Below, in pieces: positions 15,580 to 23,349 of a stretch of 64,000 bases of DNA. The stretch's first letter is position 1; each line of letters opens with the position of its first letter. The position numbers were made by a program, and so were the translations under genes. Origin of the DNA: Nonlabens sp. MB-3u-79. GTDB lineage: Bacteria > Bacteroidota > Bacteroidia > Flavobacteriales > Flavobacteriaceae. The DNA lies in contig NZ_CP025116.1 in NCBI RefSeq assembly GCF_002831625.1, positions 1,178,001-1,242,000 of the forward strand, written 5' to 3'. Below the pieces are notes generated by a model. It was given only the letters and a program-made list of their open reading frames with translations. It searched no databases and was not told where the DNA came from.

Positions 15580-16407
15580 TTATATGTTTTCGTTTAAATA
15601 TTTCCAGCACCTTTCGGGAACATACTGCAAGTGTAGTTTTAGATTTTTTCTAGACTTGATATGGGTGCTATTAAAATATTGATTCCAGAGATCTTTGTAG
15701 TTGATCTCCTTAGAGTTGATACGAAGCGCAGTTGAACTGCGAAAGCTGCTTGATGAGTCTACATCACTGTTGTTTTCTGAGGCTCTAGTAGGTAAAATGG
15801 CACCTTGACTACGGGCTTTTTTAAAATCAATTTGTACTTCTTGAACCGTTTCTAGGTCATAGCTTATTCCAAAATTGCGTTTTAAGTCATAAATAACCCA
15901 TTTCTGGTTGTGGTAATGGTCTTTAAAGTGACTGGCTATAAGGGGTAGTACGTTAAAGTCAGGTTCTATATTAGCATAATAGGTTTCTTCATCGATTAAA
16001 TGAAAACGCACCAAGGCTTCTATGCGTTGTTTCTCGTGATTTACCATTTTTGCCGCTTGAGTAATCTTTAAAACTGTAGCGTTAGCAGAGTCACTGCCTG
16101 GTGCTTTTTGAGCAGTAAAAGTCATTTTTAAATACTCATAAATCGTGTTTTCGATCCCGATGATTTCACTTAAGAAAGCACAGTATACCTGATGAGAATC
16201 TTGGTGCTCGCATAAAGAGTTAAAACGGTTCCATACACGTTGCGCTTTATCAGGATCTGTAATGACCAGTTCGGTACCTTCAAAAAGGTGGTTTTGCTCA
16301 CGAGAATCTAAAGCGATGATGGGCAGTTTAATCTTGCGGTCGTAAATAGTGAAAATAGCCGTCATCAAACCGTTTAAACTACCGTCATATAAAAGTGTAG
16401 TGGTCAT
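15580..16407 (-). CDS. TIGR03915-type putative DNA repair protein
   Basis: The 275-residue protein opens with LLYDGSLNGLMTAIFTIYDRK and contains HEKQRIEALVRFHLIDEETYYANIEPDFNVLPLIASHFKDHYHNQ-like blocks (the longer run spans residues 125-170) and the ending WNQYFNSTHIKSRKNLKLHLQYVPERCWKYL. This is the pattern of the family annotated as TIGR03915 putative DNA repair protein, which normally sits beside a radical-SAM partner. No such partner is present in the window; instead it lies downstream of dnaE and dinB. It may be the last gene of the error-prone polymerase cluster (inference). Confidence 0.8.
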   Translation of the reverse strand: MTTTLLYDGSLNGLMTAIFTIYDRKIKLPIIALDSREQNHLFEGTELVITDPDKAQRVWNRFNSLCEHQDSHQVYCAFLSEIIGIENTIYEYLKMTFTAQKAPGSDSANATVLKITQAAKMVNHEKQRIEALVRFHLIDEETYYANIEPDFNVLPLIASHFKDHYHNQKWVIYDLKRNFGISYDLETVQEVQIDFKKARSQGAILPTRASENNSDVDSSSSFRSSTALRINSKEINYKDLWNQYFNSTHIKSRKNLKLHLQYVPERCWKYLNENI

Positions 16408-16535: not shown

Positions 16536-19500
16536 TCATATCTCGATGGGTTTATCTGGTAGTTCCTGACGTCGGTACCCATGGCTATTTCCCATTCTGC
16601 GATCTTTTAGGTTGGATTGTTTATCCAGTCGCTGCATGGTCTGCGGATTCTCTTCTGCATACCTTGGATCTTGAATATAATCTGCTTTTTGCATGTTGTG
16701 TACCTCGATGGAATAGAAGTCAAATTCTTCTACAACCTTGCCGTATATTTTATAGATACCACTTCCTCTAAAGCTAATTTTTGCCGCTACTGGAGGAAAC
16801 ATCACCGTATCAAAAAAATGACCCGTACAATCTAAAAAAGTACCAAATTGCATGCGTTTTCCTTTTGCCGTATGTGTGGTCTTGATATTTACTACGTAGC
16901 CATAAATCAAAATCATTTTCTTGTTATGTGCTTTCATGTCTTCACGACTGTTGTTGTTTTTAGGCAGCTCTACTAATAGGTCAAAATGCGAACACAATGG
17001 AAAGCCTAAAAGTTCTATTTGTTCATAAGCCAATTCCTGATTTGTAGTATGAAGTTGAGGGATTTTGGCTTCTCTATATTCTGGGACGAATAGTTTGTTT
17101 TGGATATATTTTTGGGGTGATTTGTCAAGCTTATAATGTGCTTGCCACAACAATTCATAACGATCCATTGCTGTAAACCTAAAAGCATTGATGCGTATTA
17201 AAATAGAAAGCTGATCGATACTGATAAGGACACGATTTATAAAGTCATCTAGAGAGGTAAAGCTTCCATTCAAATGACGCGCTTCTATGATGCGTACCAT
17301 GGTTTTTCTTTCCAGTTCCTTGAGGTAACTGTAGCCTAGATAGATACTTTTTCCTTTAATAATGTTAGCAATATTGCTGTGATTAACACAAGGTGATTCT
17401 ATGACAGCACCACACATTTTTGCTTCGTGAACGTAGAGTTCAGGTTGGTAAAAGCCACCGCCATTATTAAGTGTTGCAGTCATGTATTCTAAGGGGAAAT
17501 ACCGTTTTAAGTAAAGAGTTTGATAACTTTCTACAGCGTAAGATGCGGAGTGCCCTTTCGCGAAAGCGTAACCAGCAAAACTCTTAATTTGATTCCATAT
17601 TTCTCTAGTTTGCTCTGGATCATGTCCTAAATCGATACAGTTCTGAAAGTATTTTTGTTCTACTTTTTGAAACTCCTCACGAGATCGGTATTTACCGCTC
17701 ATTCCACGACGCAGTACATCTGCTTCGCCAAGGTCCAGTTTTGCATAGTAATGTGCTACCTTGATCACGTCTTCTTGATAGACCATGATCCCATAAGTTT
17801 CGGGCATAATGCCTTGCATGATGGGGTGTGCATCCTTGCGTTTTTCTGGATGTCGAGTGCGTAAAATAAACTCGCGCATCATCCCGCTCTGTGCAACTCC
17901 AGGACGTATGACAGAGCTGGCAGCAACCAGTCCTATATAATTATTAGTAGCAAGTTTGCTGAGCAACATTCTCATAGCTGGAGACTCTATATAAAAGCAA
18001 CCTATGCATTTTGCCTGTGAGATCATGTTGTTGATTTCAGGGTCTTTCATAAATTTCTTTACATCAGTATGCAGGTTTGCTATAGGAGCTTCTGGTTGGT
18101 TGTATTTGATAATCTCAATCGTGTCGCGTATTTTTCCTAAACCACGTTGTGCAAGAATGTCAAATTTATGAATCCCAGCATCTTCGGCAATATGCATGTC
18201 AAACTGTACGGTACGGTATCCTTTTGGGGGCAAACTCGTGGCGCTGTAATAATGAATAGGTTTTTCAGTAATAAGAATTCCGCCGGCGTGAATGCTGGTA
18301 TAGTTGGGCATGCCTTTTATCAAATGGCTGTATTTCAATACCAATTGGTGCATTTGATCCAGCTGCTCGAGTTGAAAATTACCTGTGGCGAGTAGGTCAA
18401 TATCTGCTTTTGGAAGACCAAAAACTTTTCCTAATTCCCTGATAACTGCACGGTACTGAAAGGTGTTGTAAGTGGCAAGCAAGGCGACATGGTCAAATTC
18501 TGCAAAAATAAACCGAGTAATGTCTTCCCGGTCGTCCCATGAGAAATCAATATCAAAATCTGGCGGACTCGTCCTGTAATCGTTGATAAAACGTTCAAAA
18601 TAAAGATCGAGTTCTATGGGGTCTACCTCGGTGATCTGTAACAAATAGGCAAGAATACTGTTAGCTCCACTACCGCGACCTATGTAAAAGTAGCGTTTGC
18701 TACGTGCGTATTCACAAATGCGCCAATTGATCAAAAAATAGGCGACAAAACCTTTCTTTTTTACAACGCCTATTTCTTTTTCTATACGCTCAAAGACGTC
18801 TGTTTTATCTTCTTTATCTCCGTATCTATTTGCCACACCAGCATAAGCAAGTGTTCTTAGTTTTTGATAATCTGCTTCCTTACTCTCTGAATAGAGGTGT
18901 TGATTTGCGTTAAGTTGAGCGTTCTCAAAGTCAAAATATATCCCGCAATCTGCTAATAGGCGTTTGGTATTTTCAATGATAAAAGGATATTCTATAAAGA
19001 CTTCTTCTATTTCAGGAACAGGAATCATCTGATCTTCAAAATGACCTTGCTGGGATTCTGGCAACTGACTCAAAAGAATATTTAAATCTACACACCGTAG
19101 TAGCCGGTGGGCGTTAAAATCTTTTCTACTTCTAAACGTCACCGTTTGCATCACCACTAATTTGTCCTTCATTTTTACATATGCGGTAAAAGGAAGTTTG
19201 CGTAGTGCGGCAATAGAGATTCCTATGAATTCGCTTTCGCGAAAGCGAGTTTTCTCCAAGGTTACTACCTTTTTAAATGGATAGATGACAAAAGCATTCT
19301 CAAAGGCTGGGGCCTGATCTGGAAAAGGAATTTTGTTTTCTAGATGAAAGGATAAGTATTCATTGAGTTCCTGAAATCCATGGTTGTTCTTAGCAATACC
19401 TACATACAATTGTTGGTGCTGGTTTCTAAAATCGATCCCTATTACTGCATGAAGATTGCTTTGAGTACAAAGCCTTATAAAATTTAGGCATGCACTGGTG

Positions 19501-19619
19501 TTATTGATGTCAGTTAGAACAATGGTCTTCACTCCATTTTCAAGCGCAAGTTTTATCAGCTCTTCTTCATTAAAAGTGCCGTAACGCAAGGAGTAATAGG
19601 TGTGATTGTTTAGGTACAA
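16536..19619 (-). CDS. dnaE2: DNA polymerase III alpha subunit, short second type (DnaE2/ImuC-like)
   Basis: The 1027-residue C-family polymerase has an N-terminal PHP domain (HTYYSLRYGTF; LTDINN, lacking the PHP His of active metal sites), the catalytic palm with PPDFDIDFSWDDRED near residue 350, the GYAFAKGHSASYA block, helix-hairpin-helix region and a C-terminal OB-like region (ILIYGYVVNIKTTHTAKGKR). It is much shorter than the replicative Bacteroidetes DnaE (about 1,400-1,500 residues as I recall), and it neighbours dinB, so I infer an accessory, error-prone polymerase. One perfect palindrome copy encodes TRFRESE and an imperfect one overlies the conserved AFAKGH block. Start ATG at 19619. 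Confidence 0.85.
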   Translation of the reverse strand: MYLNNHTYYSLRYGTFNEEELIKLALENGVKTIVLTDINNTSACLNFIRLCTQSNLHAVIGIDFRNQHQQLYVGIAKNNHGFQELNEYLSFHLENKIPFPDQAPAFENAFVIYPFKKVVTLEKTRFRESEFIGISIAALRKLPFTAYVKMKDKLVVMQTVTFRSRKDFNAHRLLRCVDLNILLSQLPESQQGHFEDQMIPVPEIEEVFIEYPFIIENTKRLLADCGIYFDFENAQLNANQHLYSESKEADYQKLRTLAYAGVANRYGDKEDKTDVFERIEKEIGVVKKKGFVAYFLINWRICEYARSKRYFYIGRGSGANSILAYLLQITEVDPIELDLYFERFINDYRTSPPDFDIDFSWDDREDITRFIFAEFDHVALLATYNTFQYRAVIRELGKVFGLPKADIDLLATGNFQLEQLDQMHQLVLKYSHLIKGMPNYTSIHAGGILITEKPIHYYSATSLPPKGYRTVQFDMHIAEDAGIHKFDILAQRGLGKIRDTIEIIKYNQPEAPIANLHTDVKKFMKDPEINNMISQAKCIGCFYIESPAMRMLLSKLATNNYIGLVAASSVIRPGVAQSGMMREFILRTRHPEKRKDAHPIMQGIMPETYGIMVYQEDVIKVAHYYAKLDLGEADVLRRGMSGKYRSREEFQKVEQKYFQNCIDLGHDPEQTREIWNQIKSFAGYAFAKGHSASYAVESYQTLYLKRYFPLEYMTATLNNGGGFYQPELYVHEAKMCGAVIESPCVNHSNIANIIKGKSIYLGYSYLKELERKTMVRIIEARHLNGSFTSLDDFINRVLISIDQLSILIRINAFRFTAMDRYELLWQAHYKLDKSPQKYIQNKLFVPEYREAKIPQLHTTNQELAYEQIELLGFPLCSHFDLLVELPKNNNSREDMKAHNKKMILIYGYVVNIKTTHTAKGKRMQFGTFLDCTGHFFDTVMFPPVAAKISFRGSGIYKIYGKVVEEFDFYSIEVHNMQKADYIQDPRYAEENPQTMQRLDKQSNLKDRRMGNSHGYRRQELPDKPIEI
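17554..17567. repeat. TTTCGCGAAA palindrome copy 6 (one mismatch)
   Basis: CCTTTCGCGAAAGC inside dnaE2, over the conserved AFAKGH block, so it may be protein-driven coincidence. Confidence 0.6.
19233..19246. repeat. TTTCGCGAAA palindrome copy 7 (perfect)
   Basis: GCTTTCGCGAAAGC inside dnaE2; read as RFRES. Symmetry extends to 18 bp. Confidence 0.95.
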
Positions 19620-19797: not shown

Positions 19798-21015
19798 TTA
19801 TTGTTTGCGATGAGCGAGCACGACAGGAGGTAATCCATTAAAAGGGTTGAGTATTCGGCCTATGGTTTTTGCTTCCATTCCAGCAGCTCTCATTACGGTC
19901 CTATCCCCATACTTCTCTCTTATTTTATCTAGTGCGTTATACAGGTTAAGTGCAGTTTCATTATCATCAAACAGGTTGATCTGGTAATGACCATTTACAA
20001 TATGTGAAAATCGGATCCCTATAAGTCGGATCAATAACCTGCGGTTGTATAGCTTTTCAAAAATCTCTAGTATGCGGGGTATCAAAATATGATCTGCGCT
20101 GCAATAAGGGATTCGCATCTGCTTGGTGTAAGTGTTGAAGTCAGAGTATTTTATCTTCACGTTAATGCAACCGGTGAGTTTATCGCCGCGTCTTAGTTGA
20201 AAAGCGAGGTTTTCAGTCATGGCGATAAGAATGGAATTCAGTTTTTTCACATCGATGGTATCTCGGTCAAAAGTGCGCTCGGTACTGATAGATTTACGCT
20301 CATTAAAAGCAATCACTGGTCGGTTATCTATTCCTTGAGCACGGCGCCAGATCATACTGCCGTTTTTACCCAGTACGTTGATGAGCATTTCTTCAGGCAT
20401 TTCTTGAATGGTATGAATGCGTTTAACGCCTAAATGTCTCAGCGTTTGATAGGTTTTATCTCCTACTTGCGGAATTTTTTTTACAGACAGTGGGGCCATA
20501 AAGTCTTTTTCTTCCCCATAATTGATCATCAATTGGTTGTTAGGTTTTGCTTCTCCAGTGGCGATTTTGGAAACAACTTTATTCATAGAAAGGCCAAAGG
20601 AAATAGGCAGTCCTGTTTCTTTGATTACTTTCTTGCGCAATTCTGTTGCCAGCTTATAACAGCCATAAAATCGATCCATTCCAGAGAGATCTGCATAGAA
20701 CTCATCAATACTTGATTTTTCAAAAAGAGGGGTTTCTTGTTTGACGATTTCAGTGACTTCATCAGAGTGTTTAGAATACGTCCCTGCATTACCTCTTATA
20801 ACAACTGCTTCTGGGCAAAGCTGCCTTGCCAATTTCATAGACATGCCGCTGTGTACACCATAGCCTCTTGTCTCATAACTACATGCAGCAACGACGCCAC
20901 GATCGCTAGTTCCACCTACGAGTAGAGGTCTGTTTTCAAGACGTGAATCCATCTTTCTCTCTACAGAAACGTAGAAAGTGTCTAGATCTAAATGCATGAT
21001 GTGTTTATCGCTCAT
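19798..21015 (-). CDS. dinB: DNA polymerase IV (Y-family, DinB)
   Basis: This translesion polymerase has about 405 residues. Catalytic acidic residues are visible in HLDLDTFYVSVE (Asp10) and SSIDEFYADLSG (Asp104, Glu105), so it is catalytically competent, unlike ImuB. The PxPGVGxK-like HhH region (KKIPQVGDKTYQTL) and little-finger domain follow, and QINLF in the C-terminal third matches a beta-clamp-binding motif. I prefer the ATG at 21015; the frame extends to ATG 21024, but that lies at the edge of a REP-like palindrome. It is about 180 bp upstream of dnaE2 on the same strand. Confidence 0.92.
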   Translation of the reverse strand: MSDKHIMHLDLDTFYVSVERKMDSRLENRPLLVGGTSDRGVVAACSYETRGYGVHSGMSMKLARQLCPEAVVIRGNAGTYSKHSDEVTEIVKQETPLFEKSSIDEFYADLSGMDRFYGCYKLATELRKKVIKETGLPISFGLSMNKVVSKIATGEAKPNNQLMINYGEEKDFMAPLSVKKIPQVGDKTYQTLRHLGVKRIHTIQEMPEEMLINVLGKNGSMIWRRAQGIDNRPVIAFNERKSISTERTFDRDTIDVKKLNSILIAMTENLAFQLRRGDKLTGCINVKIKYSDFNTYTKQMRIPYCSADHILIPRILEIFEKLYNRRLLIRLIGIRFSHIVNGHYQINLFDDNETALNLYNALDKIREKYGDRTVMRAAGMEAKTIGRILNPFNGLPPVVLAHRKQ

Positions 21016-21025
21016 AGTTATCATA

Positions 21026-21231: not shown

Positions 21232-21264
21232 TAAAAAACCTCACAGAAATAGTTCTGTGAGGTT
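21232..21264 (-). terminator. Terminator of the SRAP operon (minus strand)
   Basis: On the minus strand AACCTCACAGAA pairs with TTCTGTGAGGTT (plus 21237-21248 and 21253-21264) and runs into TTTTTTAA. It separates the SRAP and 94-residue genes from dinB, so dinB probably has its own promoter. Confidence 0.88.
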
Positions 21265-21303: not shown

Positions 21304-21588
21304 CTAATCGATCATGTTTTTAATGACTAGATCATTTACTGTAGGTTCCATAAAGCTTACAAAACCTTCCTTTTCAATTTCATTCTTAAAATGAATACCC
21401 TTTTGCTGTAGTACCTCATGAAGTGTGTGGTATACTTTATGGATTAGGTCTTCTGTCTCGGCTACTTTATCAGACCAAGTTTTTACTTGGCACACTACCT
21501 TCATAGTAGCTTGCCTACTAGTTTTTCTAGTGATAAGGAGCTGTTCTACTCGTTGCGCTAGTTCTGTTTTTATGAGTTCTATATTCAT
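21304..21588 (-). CDS. Small protein of unknown function downstream of SRAP
   Basis: The predicted product is about 94 residues, mainly helical and charged (MNIELIKTELAQRVEQLLITRK...), with no signal or membrane segment. I do not recognise a family. I place the start at ATG 21588, 13 bp past the SRAP stop; a further in-frame ATG at 21615 would overlap the SRAP end by 14 bp. A terminator follows directly, so SRAP and this gene form a two-gene operon under the S24 operator. That context suggests a DNA-damage-related role (inference). Confidence 0.65.
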   Translation of the reverse strand: MNIELIKTELAQRVEQLLITRKTSRQATMKVVCQVKTWSDKVAETEDLIHKVYHTLHEVLQQKGIHFKNEIEKEGFVSFMEPTVNDLVIKNMID

Positions 21589-21601: not shown

Positions 21602-22429
21602 TTAAAATAAAACAAATTGGTCTCCTTCTACAAGACGCTCTTCTCTGATGGCGTATTCATCTTCTTCAGCAAACTTGAGTCTTTCATATAGACAGCGGTC
21701 GTAATCTTTGAAAAGTTTATCTCCTATAGGCTTCAAAAGTTCTAAGCCGTTTGCTTCTGGATTTTTTATTTTTTGTGAAATAGGATAAGCATTGAATCCT
21801 TTAGAGTCAAAAGGTTGCATCATGTTAGAAAGCTCTGCGGTAGAGATGTCTGGATTGAGCCACTTCTCTTCATCTTCTTTACTCAGTACTACCGGAGCTC
21901 TATGGTGCTCTATTCTTTGGGTAAGTCTATTTGCTGCAGTGGTAATAATGGCGACGGTACGATGTAATTCTCCAGTTAACGGATGTTCCCAAGTGTCATA
22001 AATTCCAGCTAGTGCAAAGGGGCCACGATCACGATTAGGATATACGATAAAGGGTTTATTAAGCTTTTCTTGCTTCGGACCTTCTATAAAGGCATCTACA
22101 AGAACTAAACAACGTTGAGATTTAATGGCATGACGGAACATAGGTTTATTAAAAATACCCATAGCTCCTTTATAATTAGGATTGTTTTCTATGTTTAAAC
22201 TTCCCTCACTGCGCGCATTGATCATGTACGTCTGTTTGTGAGCCCAGTGAGGTGTATAGCCTAAAGTAAATAGCTGTATATGGTTAGGTTGCTCGCTTGT
22301 AATTACAGGTATCTCATTACCTGCGCTTATGTTCACGTTTTCTTTGAGTTCAGCACTTTTTATAAAGGCGGCATTGAACCGCTTTTCTAAATCTACTGCT
22401 GGTGTAATTATCGTTGCTCTTCCACACAT
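21602..22429 (-). CDS. SRAP domain protein (HMCES/YedK-like abasic-site shield)
   Basis: This 275-residue protein belongs to the SOS-response-associated peptidase family, whose members form a covalent link through Cys2 to abasic sites in single-stranded DNA. The start must be ATG 22429 so that processing exposes Cys2 (MCGRATIITP); an upstream in-frame ATG at 22456 would bury it. Other active-site residues are visible: Asn71 in INARSE, Glu116 in DAFIEG (the usual motif is FYEW-like) and His175/176 in EHHRAPVVL. The promoter region carries operator copies shared with the divergent S24 repressor gene. Confidence 0.92.
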   Translation of the reverse strand: MCGRATIITPAVDLEKRFNAAFIKSAELKENVNISAGNEIPVITSEQPNHIQLFTLGYTPHWAHKQTYMINARSEGSLNIENNPNYKGAMGIFNKPMFRHAIKSQRCLVLVDAFIEGPKQEKLNKPFIVYPNRDRGPFALAGIYDTWEHPLTGELHRTVAIITTAANRLTQRIEHHRAPVVLSKEDEEKWLNPDISTAELSNMMQPFDSKGFNAYPISQKIKNPEANGLELLKPIGDKLFKDYDRCLYERLKFAEEDEYAIREERLVEGDQFVLF

Positions 22430-22442
22430 AATTATAGTTTTA

Positions 22443-22455
22443 TGGAAATATTCCA
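22443..22455. promoter_or_regulatory. Operator copy 1 (S24/SRAP)
   Basis: TGGAAATATTCCA, a perfect GGAA-N3-TTCC dyad with flanking T/A, lies 14 bp upstream of the SRAP start codon, in its predicted leader. Confidence 0.75.
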
Positions 22456-22477
22456 AGAATTATCTCCGTTGACGATT

Positions 22478-22485
22478 CAAATATA
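22478..22485 (-). promoter_or_regulatory. Candidate -7 element of the SRAP operon
   Basis: On the minus strand TATATTTG matches TAnnTTTG. It directly abuts operator copy 2, so a repressor bound there would block it. No ideally spaced TTG is seen. Confidence 0.5.
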
Positions 22486-22498
22486 TGGAATAATTCCA
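22486..22498. promoter_or_regulatory. Operator copy 2 (S24/SRAP)
   Basis: TGGAATAATTCCA, same dyad as copies 1, 3 and 4 with a TAA centre; adjacent to the SRAP -7 element. Confidence 0.78.
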
Positions 22499-22504
22499 AC
22501 ATTA

Positions 22505-22517
22505 TGGAAATATTCCA
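22505..22517. promoter_or_regulatory. Operator copy 3 (S24/SRAP)
   Basis: TGGAAATATTCCA, identical to copy 1; its start lies 19 bp from that of copy 2, close to two helical turns, which would favour cooperative binding. Confidence 0.8.
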
Positions 22518-22526
22518 GTGTTAAAA

Positions 22527-22556
22527 TTGGAAATATTCCTAAATGACCTATATTTG
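22527..22556 (+). promoter_or_regulatory. Promoter of the S24 repressor gene
   Basis: TTG (22527-22529), a 19-bp spacer and TATATTTG (22549-22556) match the Bacteroidetes -33/-7 consensus exactly. The ATG at 22561 is only 4 bp beyond the -7 element, so the transcript is predicted to be leaderless or nearly so. Operator copy 4 covers the -33 element and the spacer. Confidence 0.78.
22528..22540. promoter_or_regulatory. Operator copy 4 (S24/SRAP)
   Basis: TGGAAATATTCCT, one base from copy 1 and 3. It overlaps the -33 element of the S24 promoter, as expected for autorepression. Confidence 0.8.
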
Positions 22557-22560
22557 TCTT

Positions 22561-23349
22561 ATGGCACAAGAGATTCCAACAGAAGCAAAAAGATTCAAAC
22601 AGGTACGAGAGGACTTGGGGAAAACGCAAAGTGAGTTTGCAGACTTGCTCGATGCAGGTAGCACAACTGCCGATATAGAGCGCGGTAAAAAGAAAATTAC
22701 TGGTAAGATTGTCACAGAATTATTACGACAGTTTAATGTGAACCCATTGTGGTTGTATGGGAATAGTTATAATAAATACTTAGAGACGAGTACAAGTACA
22801 GCGCCTAAGATCATAACCATGGATACTAATGATCGTGAAAATATGATCATGGTTCCTATTAAAGCAAGTGCTGGTTACGCAAGTAATGTACAAGATACAG
22901 ACTGGTATAACGAGTTGCCTGCATTTAATATACCCCTGCCTCAATATAGAGAAGGAAGCTATCGCGCTTTTCAGGTACAAGGGGATAGTATGTTGCCTGT
23001 ATTGCAGCCGCAAGAATGGGTGATGGGAAAAGCAGTAGAAAGTGTGCGTACAGCAAATGACAATCGCATTCATGTGGTCGTAACTGCAGATAGTGTTTTA
23101 GTAAAGAAACTACGCAAGTCAGAATCTCCAGAGGCGGTAAATTTGATTTCCCTTAATCGAGAATACCCAGTGATTGAGCAAGCAGTGGTGGAGATTAAAG
23201 AGCTTTGGGAAGTGAATTCAAAATTGAGTTTTGACCTAGACGTGCATGAAGGAGAAGAAGCGATGATTTCTTTAAAACAAGGACTCGATAGTTTGCGGGA
23301 AGAAATACAGAGTATTAAAAAAGGGAATACATTTAAAAAGCTACTCTAA
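22561..23349 (+). CDS. XRE-type HTH repressor with S24 (LexA-like) peptidase domain
   Basis: The 262-residue protein has an N-terminal helix-turn-helix (about 8-60, KTQSEFADLLDAGSTTADIERG) and a C-terminal S24 peptidase domain with nucleophile Ser143 in QGDSML and general-base Lys182 or 183 in VLVKKLRK. An Ala-Gly pair at 104-105 in KASAGYA is a plausible self-cleavage site. This is the LexA/CI design: RecA-stimulated autocleavage would derepress targets. I chose ATG 22561 because the promoter ends just before it; the frame extends to ATG 22543 inside the promoter. It is the likely owner of the four flanking operators. Confidence 0.9.
   Translation: MAQEIPTEAKRFKQVREDLGKTQSEFADLLDAGSTTADIERGKKKITGKIVTELLRQFNVNPLWLYGNSYNKYLETSTSTAPKIITMDTNDRENMIMVPIKASAGYASNVQDTDWYNELPAFNIPLPQYREGSYRAFQVQGDSMLPVLQPQEWVMGKAVESVRTANDNRIHVVVTADSVLVKKLRKSESPEAVNLISLNREYPVIEQAVVEIKELWEVNSKLSFDLDVHEGEEAMISLKQGLDSLREEIQSIKKGNTFKKLL

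Follow-up and report, generated by a model that had tools for sequence, protein, structure and literature searches.

The DNA analysed here, a 64,000-nucleotide stretch of the Nonlabens sp. MB-3u-79 genome (the window), contains a gene for an S24-type repressor (22561..23349, plus strand; Pfam HTH_3, 1.2e-6, and Peptidase_S24, 1.4e-9) that lies back to back with a gene for an SOS response-associated peptidase (SRAP; 21602..22429, minus strand; PF02586, 9e-46). From SRAP onwards, the minus strand encodes a 94-residue protein (21304..21588, ORF103 without its TTG extension), a DinB/Pol IV-type Y-family polymerase (19798..21024), a DnaE-type (DnaE2-like) polymerase recognised from domain matches (16536..19619) and a putative DNA repair protein of the TIGR03915 family (DUF4130; 15580..16407; TIGR03915, 7.2e-66, and PF13566, 4.4e-44). 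An intrinsic-terminator hairpin followed by T6 (21237..21264, minus strand) separates ORF103 from dinB. The 94-residue protein has no Pfam or NCBIfam match, and the eight of its 26 database homologues that carry an organism name are all from Nonlabens. In two Nonlabens relatives, a radical SAM gene of the TIGR03916 type follows DnaE2 (L056:1-120 and L057:1-129); no match to such a gene was detected in the 64-kb window.

Four dyads occupy the interval between the S24 and SRAP genes, as had been predicted from the sequence. The motif TGGAANNNTTCCA occurs exactly in copy 1 (22443..22455), copy 2 (O1, 22486..22498) and copy 3 (O2, 22505..22517), and with one mismatch in copy 4 (O3, 22528..22540), so that successive copies are 43, 19 and 23 bp apart; the published core GGA-N5-TCC is matched exactly in all four. 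This clustering in 22443..22540 is far above chance. While 131 bp of the window hold four sites with at most one mismatch to TGGAANNNTTCCA, 19,735 of 20,000 Markov sequences with the region's own composition contained no site, 264 contained one and a single sequence contained two, and no 110-bp stretch in 60 simulated 64-kb windows held more than one. Across the 3.18-Mb contig containing the window, the single motif is not enriched, either as TGGAANNNTTCCA (10 occurrences versus 12 for the reversed control) or as GGAWWWWWTCC (43 versus 88 for the control), and only clustered dyads are therefore informative.

The dyads are arranged around two facing promoters, each with the -7 box TATATTTG, at 22549..22556 on the plus strand for the S24 gene and at 22478..22485 on the minus strand for SRAP. 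In agreement with the original prediction, the S24 promoter has its -33 region covered by copy 4, which lies upstream of the -7 box, and copy 2 adjoins the -7 box of SRAP, its GGA-N5-TCC core being 1 nt away. The S24 start codon, ATG 22561, is conserved across eight aligned Nonlabens loci; an ATG at 22543 was rejected as the start, being not conserved among the same loci. SRAP starts at ATG 22429 (the protein begins MCGR), which places copy 1 within the SRAP leader. In Flavobacterium johnsoniae, the last G of the -7 element corresponds to position -5, and the -33 consensus is weak (PMC6847099). Since the S24 -7 box ends 4 nt upstream of the start codon, we predict that transcription begins at the A of the ATG, giving a leaderless repressor mRNA. 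Box and ATG are separated by 3-4 nt in 39 of the 69 genera with a box near a dyad, so leaderless repressor mRNAs are predicted to be frequent across genera; in F. psychrophilum, 5.5% of mRNAs are leaderless (PMC9723704). A classical sigma-70 promoter scan gave no excess of hits (14 versus 13.4 in shuffled sequences), as expected for promoters of the Bacteroidetes type.

Comparison within the genus revealed a footprint. All eight Nonlabens loci (seven distinct sequences) retain the 43/19/23 spacing, with copy 1 present in every one of them. Among the seven distinct sequences, the GGA/TCC columns (24 of 24) and the -7 box columns (16 of 16), including those of the SRAP box, are invariant, compared with 31 of the 63 remaining intergenic columns. 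The flanks of copy 3 change on both sides in three species, from ATGG...CCA to TAGG...CC(T/C)A-type ends, with the core kept. The region is a genuine, functional-looking operator region of a kind that has been published.

The S24 protein retains the residues expected of a self-cleaving repressor. The Ser/Lys pair and the Ala-Gly cleavage candidate, which the original prediction had described as intact, correspond to candidate catalytic residues Ser143 (22987..22989) and Lys182 (23104..23106) and to Ala104-Gly105 (22870..22875), numbered from ATG 22561, the start given by the footprint; none of them varies among the 14 aligned orthologues. The N-terminal domain is a PF01381-type HTH and not the winged HTH of LexA, and LexA_DNA_bind (PF01726) has no match in the protein or anywhere in the genome, which encodes one RecA. 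The nearest named records come from an uncultured Nonlabens and N. dokdonensis (96-98%). The protein is 53% identical over its full length (134/255 residues) to an orthologue from Salegentibacter agarivorans DSM 23515 (L258), which is tied to the experimentally tested protein of that species (WP_075324850.1) by strain and not by accession. A structure model of the S24 protein was weak (mean pLDDT 64.8, pTM 0.39); it includes a predicted helix at residues 226-261, a low-confidence candidate for the additional C-terminal helix of the GGA-N5-TCC group introduced below. A Foldseek search with this model placed lambda repressor first (E 1.5e-4) and LexA chains next, with whole-chain TM-scores below 0.3, and a profile search of solved structures gave three matches, to HTH proteins only. 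In view of the poor model confidence and the low TM-scores, the fold match lends weak support only.

Previous work has shown that S24 repressors with CI-type DNA-binding domains run the SOS response of Bacteroidetes, and that one group of these non-canonical LexA proteins, occurring for the most part in Flavobacteriaceae, recognises GGA-N5-TCC (Sanchez-Osuna et al. 2021; PMC8565304). In S. agarivorans DSM 23515, this motif is supported by EMSA with mutated sites and by RT-qPCR after mitomycin treatment; predicted targets include SRAP (COG2135), dinB/dnaE and a GIY-YIG exonuclease, and, according to the main text, several promoters hold two or more motif instances (PMC8565304). The S24 protein resembles this group in its CI-type HTH and S24 domain, in its Ala-Gly, Ser and Lys residues, in the motif in its own promoter, present here in four copies, and in the lack of a canonical LexA in the genome. 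It differs in genomic setting, with a dyad-free recA, dinB behind a terminator and the additional 94-residue gene. As proposed at the outset, the operator does differ from the classical LexA boxes, but its suggested novelty falls, since GGA-N5-TCC is the published motif. The regulator itself has thus already been described, and the locus confirms the published kind in another genus. We consider it very probable that the SOS repressor of this Nonlabens-type flavobacterium is the product of the S24 gene, that this protein belongs to the GGA-N5-TCC group, and that the dyads are its operators. That it acts through them on itself and on SRAP, as predicted, fits all our findings and matches the published group, although the damage response and the binding motif are known from the published relative and are extended to the window organism by analogy.

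A further group of non-canonical LexA proteins, which recognises CTAA-N5-TTAG, has the same architecture as the S24 protein, and a second S24 protein with such a site has been reported for several Flavobacteriaceae (PMC8565304). We observed a second S24/HTH_3 protein, a paralogue encoded in the window's genome (L271:1387-2136, at ~924 kb), whose start is preceded, at a distance of 49 bp, by CTAA-N5-TTAG. It is 22% identical to the S24 protein in the alignment and keeps the aligned Ser, but has no Ala-Gly pair and carries Arg at the position of the Lys, suggesting that it is possibly a repressor unable to cleave itself.

To place the array in the context of the family, we read the loci of all close orthologues (E up to 1e-50), which were present in 114 of 299 family genomes (113 in addition to the window) and in 91 of 236 genera sampled; genus statistics use one locus for each of the 91 genera. 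Within 300 bp upstream of the orthologue, 111 of the 114 loci carry one or more GGA-N5-TCC dyads and 106 carry at least two, compared with one locus for the reversed control AGGN5CCT. The spacings of adjacent dyads in the 91 genera are two-peaked, with 61 of 149 at 18-20 bp and 71 of 149 at 21-23 bp, and a strict triple combining the two (18-20/21-23 bp) recurs in 45 of the 91 genera, so that a fixed dyad array is found in many genera of the family. The other 46 genera have the 21-23 bp pair alone (23), the 18-20 bp pair alone (9), an outer pair at 40-43 bp (4), another arrangement (7) or none (3). Every triple (45/45) has a divergent TAnnTT(T/C)G -7 box 1 nt beyond O1, and 41 of 45 have an S24-side -7 box 8-11 nt beyond O3; in the 23 genera with the 21-23 bp pair alone, the divergent box is absent at the corresponding place. 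S. agarivorans, the tested species, carries no triple: it has two dyads 30 bp apart, unlike the four at 43/19/23 bp between the S24 and SRAP genes of the window. Such pairs at 29-31 bp before the S24 gene form a third spacing class, seen in S. agarivorans (L258:4940-5000) and related genera; among 79 named loci, selected by closeness to the alignment, there are 28 triples and 17 pairs of this class, S. agarivorans included.

The orthologues adjoin DNA-repair genes in 60 of the 91 genera, counting radical SAM TIGR03916, TIGR03915, DinB or SRAP as repair-type divergent neighbours. The triple, and with it the distal dyad, was present in 44 of these 60 genera, compared with one of the 31 whose neighbour was classed as 'other' (Fisher p 3.1e-11), a class defined by the lack of a match to six reference proteins and which may itself include repair genes. 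The association may nevertheless reflect common descent, as the tree offers only two independent, well-supported pairs. We describe the array as a bidirectional module, apparently serving the repressor gene on one flank and a gene for DNA repair on the opposite flank.

The original prediction had also proposed scanning the genome for sites near repair genes. Single dyads, which show no excess, did not yield a regulon, and this search was rejected: of the 43 GGAWWWWWTCC sites, four belong to the S24 locus and 32 of 35 others examined lie inside ORFs, while the last four comprise one exonuclease dyad, one intergenic site, one site in an ORF and the site at 3118585, which was left out of the context check. 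The doublet pattern GGAN5TCC-N6-14-GGAN5TCC was more selective. Of its six places in the window's genome, three fall within long ORFs, two belong to the S24 locus and one precedes an exonuclease gene, leaving only two intergenic regions, the S24-SRAP locus and the exonuclease promoter. The latter is a 19-bp dyad doublet at genome position 3009876-3009905 (L009:1483-1512) preceding a DEDD/GIY-YIG exonuclease gene, in whose open frame the first ATG falls inside the conserved domain. Among exonuclease orthologues at 30 loci in 30 genomes, the nearest six all have a 19-bp pair, one has a single dyad and 23 have none. The motif precedes SRAP and the exonuclease gene among the SOS genes of this genome, and is absent upstream of recA and dinB. 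With a doublet at the exonuclease promoter, and with dinB-dnaE2 behind a terminator and without dyads, the description of the switch as 'self-contained' proved too strong.

The position of dinB-dnaE2 bears on the extent of the regulon. The terminator, which we found by folding (the promoter and terminator scan listed only plus-strand terminators here), has a folding z of -5.9 for its stretch of the window. A perfect stem of 10-12 bp with T6 is present in six of seven distinct Nonlabens loci and a weaker one in the seventh; the stem sequences vary while pairing is kept through compensatory changes. Such a conserved terminator would attenuate dinB-dnaE2 transcription arriving from the SRAP promoter. 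As the interval between ORF103 and dinB also contains neither a dyad nor a TAnnTT(T/C)G box in any of the seven loci, dinB-dnaE2 must either be transcribed by polymerases reading through from the SRAP promoter or escape repressor control. The second option would mean a narrow regulon in Nonlabens, limited to the repressor gene itself, SRAP-ORF103 and the exonuclease gene, with dinB-dnaE2 expressed independently. Both the terminator and the empty interval speak for it, but no alternative promoter was found before dinB either, which makes read-through the simplest source of dinB mRNA. Moreover, searching 30 genomes with the window's DinB returned 27 dinB loci in 25 genomes, and in these other genera dyads exactly 19 bp apart are found at 20 of the 27 (two of the 20 facing an S24 gene), with five of the 27 dyad-free. 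We regard independent expression of dinB-dnaE2 as possible, though less likely than not.

Two further readings question the identity of the system itself. The locus could be the immunity region of a prophage remnant, with a CI-type repressor maintaining itself beside repair genes by chance; the HTH_3 domain, the lambda repressor as best fold match by E-value (from a weak model) and three operators between facing promoters, reminiscent of lambda OR, would all suit such an origin. Against this, orthologues occur in 91 of 236 sampled genera and, in 60 of these 91, have DNA-repair genes as neighbours, and a host SOS role has been published for the group (PMC8565304), making a remnant highly improbable. 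Alternatively, the dyads might belong to another regulator, with the S24 protein not binding them. Doublet excess over the reversed control, however, tracks the presence of the orthologue, at 106 versus 27 in 22 genomes that have it against 42 versus 28 in 38 genomes that do not (Mann-Whitney p 3.2e-5, 60 genomes), and EMSA places the S. agarivorans orthologue on GGA-N5-TCC (PMC8565304), so that we give this reading even less credence than the prophage remnant.

Taking the S24 protein as the SOS repressor, a mechanism can be proposed for the locus. By analogy with the published relative (PMC8565304), dimers of the repressor would occupy every dyad and hold the two promoters repressed. The anatomy of the region suggests that copies 2 and 3, 19 bp apart, act on the SRAP promoter and copies 3 and 4, 23 bp apart, on the S24 promoter itself, while copy 1 may block early SRAP elongation or strengthen binding. 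The fixed spacing suggests that adjacent dimers may bind cooperatively. After damage, RecA filaments would trigger self-cleavage of the repressor, as expected from the relative, most likely at Ala104-Gly105, and removal of the cleaved protein would derepress the S24 and SRAP genes together.

Like canonical LexA of E. coli and B. subtilis, the S24 protein would be a self-cleaving S24 repressor of itself and of repair genes; unlike LexA, it lacks the LexA_DNA_bind domain and uses a different operator. In phage lambda, OR comprises three operators flanked by facing promoters, and the repressor is translated from a leaderless mRNA. The system described here shares with lambda a CI-type DNA-binding domain, the arrangement of three operators with a promoter facing outwards on either side (a likeness of anatomy only, in 45 of 91 genera) and a predicted leaderless repressor mRNA, but it differs in being a host gene adjoining repair genes and in the spacing and sequence of its sites. 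Spacing, cooperativity and leaderless mRNA were not found in the main text of PMC8565304, whose supplements may give spacing; those supplements aside, we found no printed account of the array layout, the doublet rule or the predicted leaderless mRNA, which we regard as additions to the published description.

These features allow a tentative and rather speculative proposal, in which the GGA-group repressor reads arrays whose spacing carries meaning. Doublets at 18-19 bp, with one dyad core against the -7 box, would mark its targets and a 22-23 bp pair its own promoter, the middle operator being common to both where target and repressor gene lie opposite one another; together with the leaderless mRNA, this would amount to a host SOS circuit still arranged like a lambda-type immunity region, its repressor perhaps a descendant of such a phage repressor. 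The array layout is a sharper means of finding targets, with single dyads showing no excess and doublets leaving two intergenic regions beside plausible targets, and it provides a testable link between the host repressor and the phage repressors thought to be its origin.
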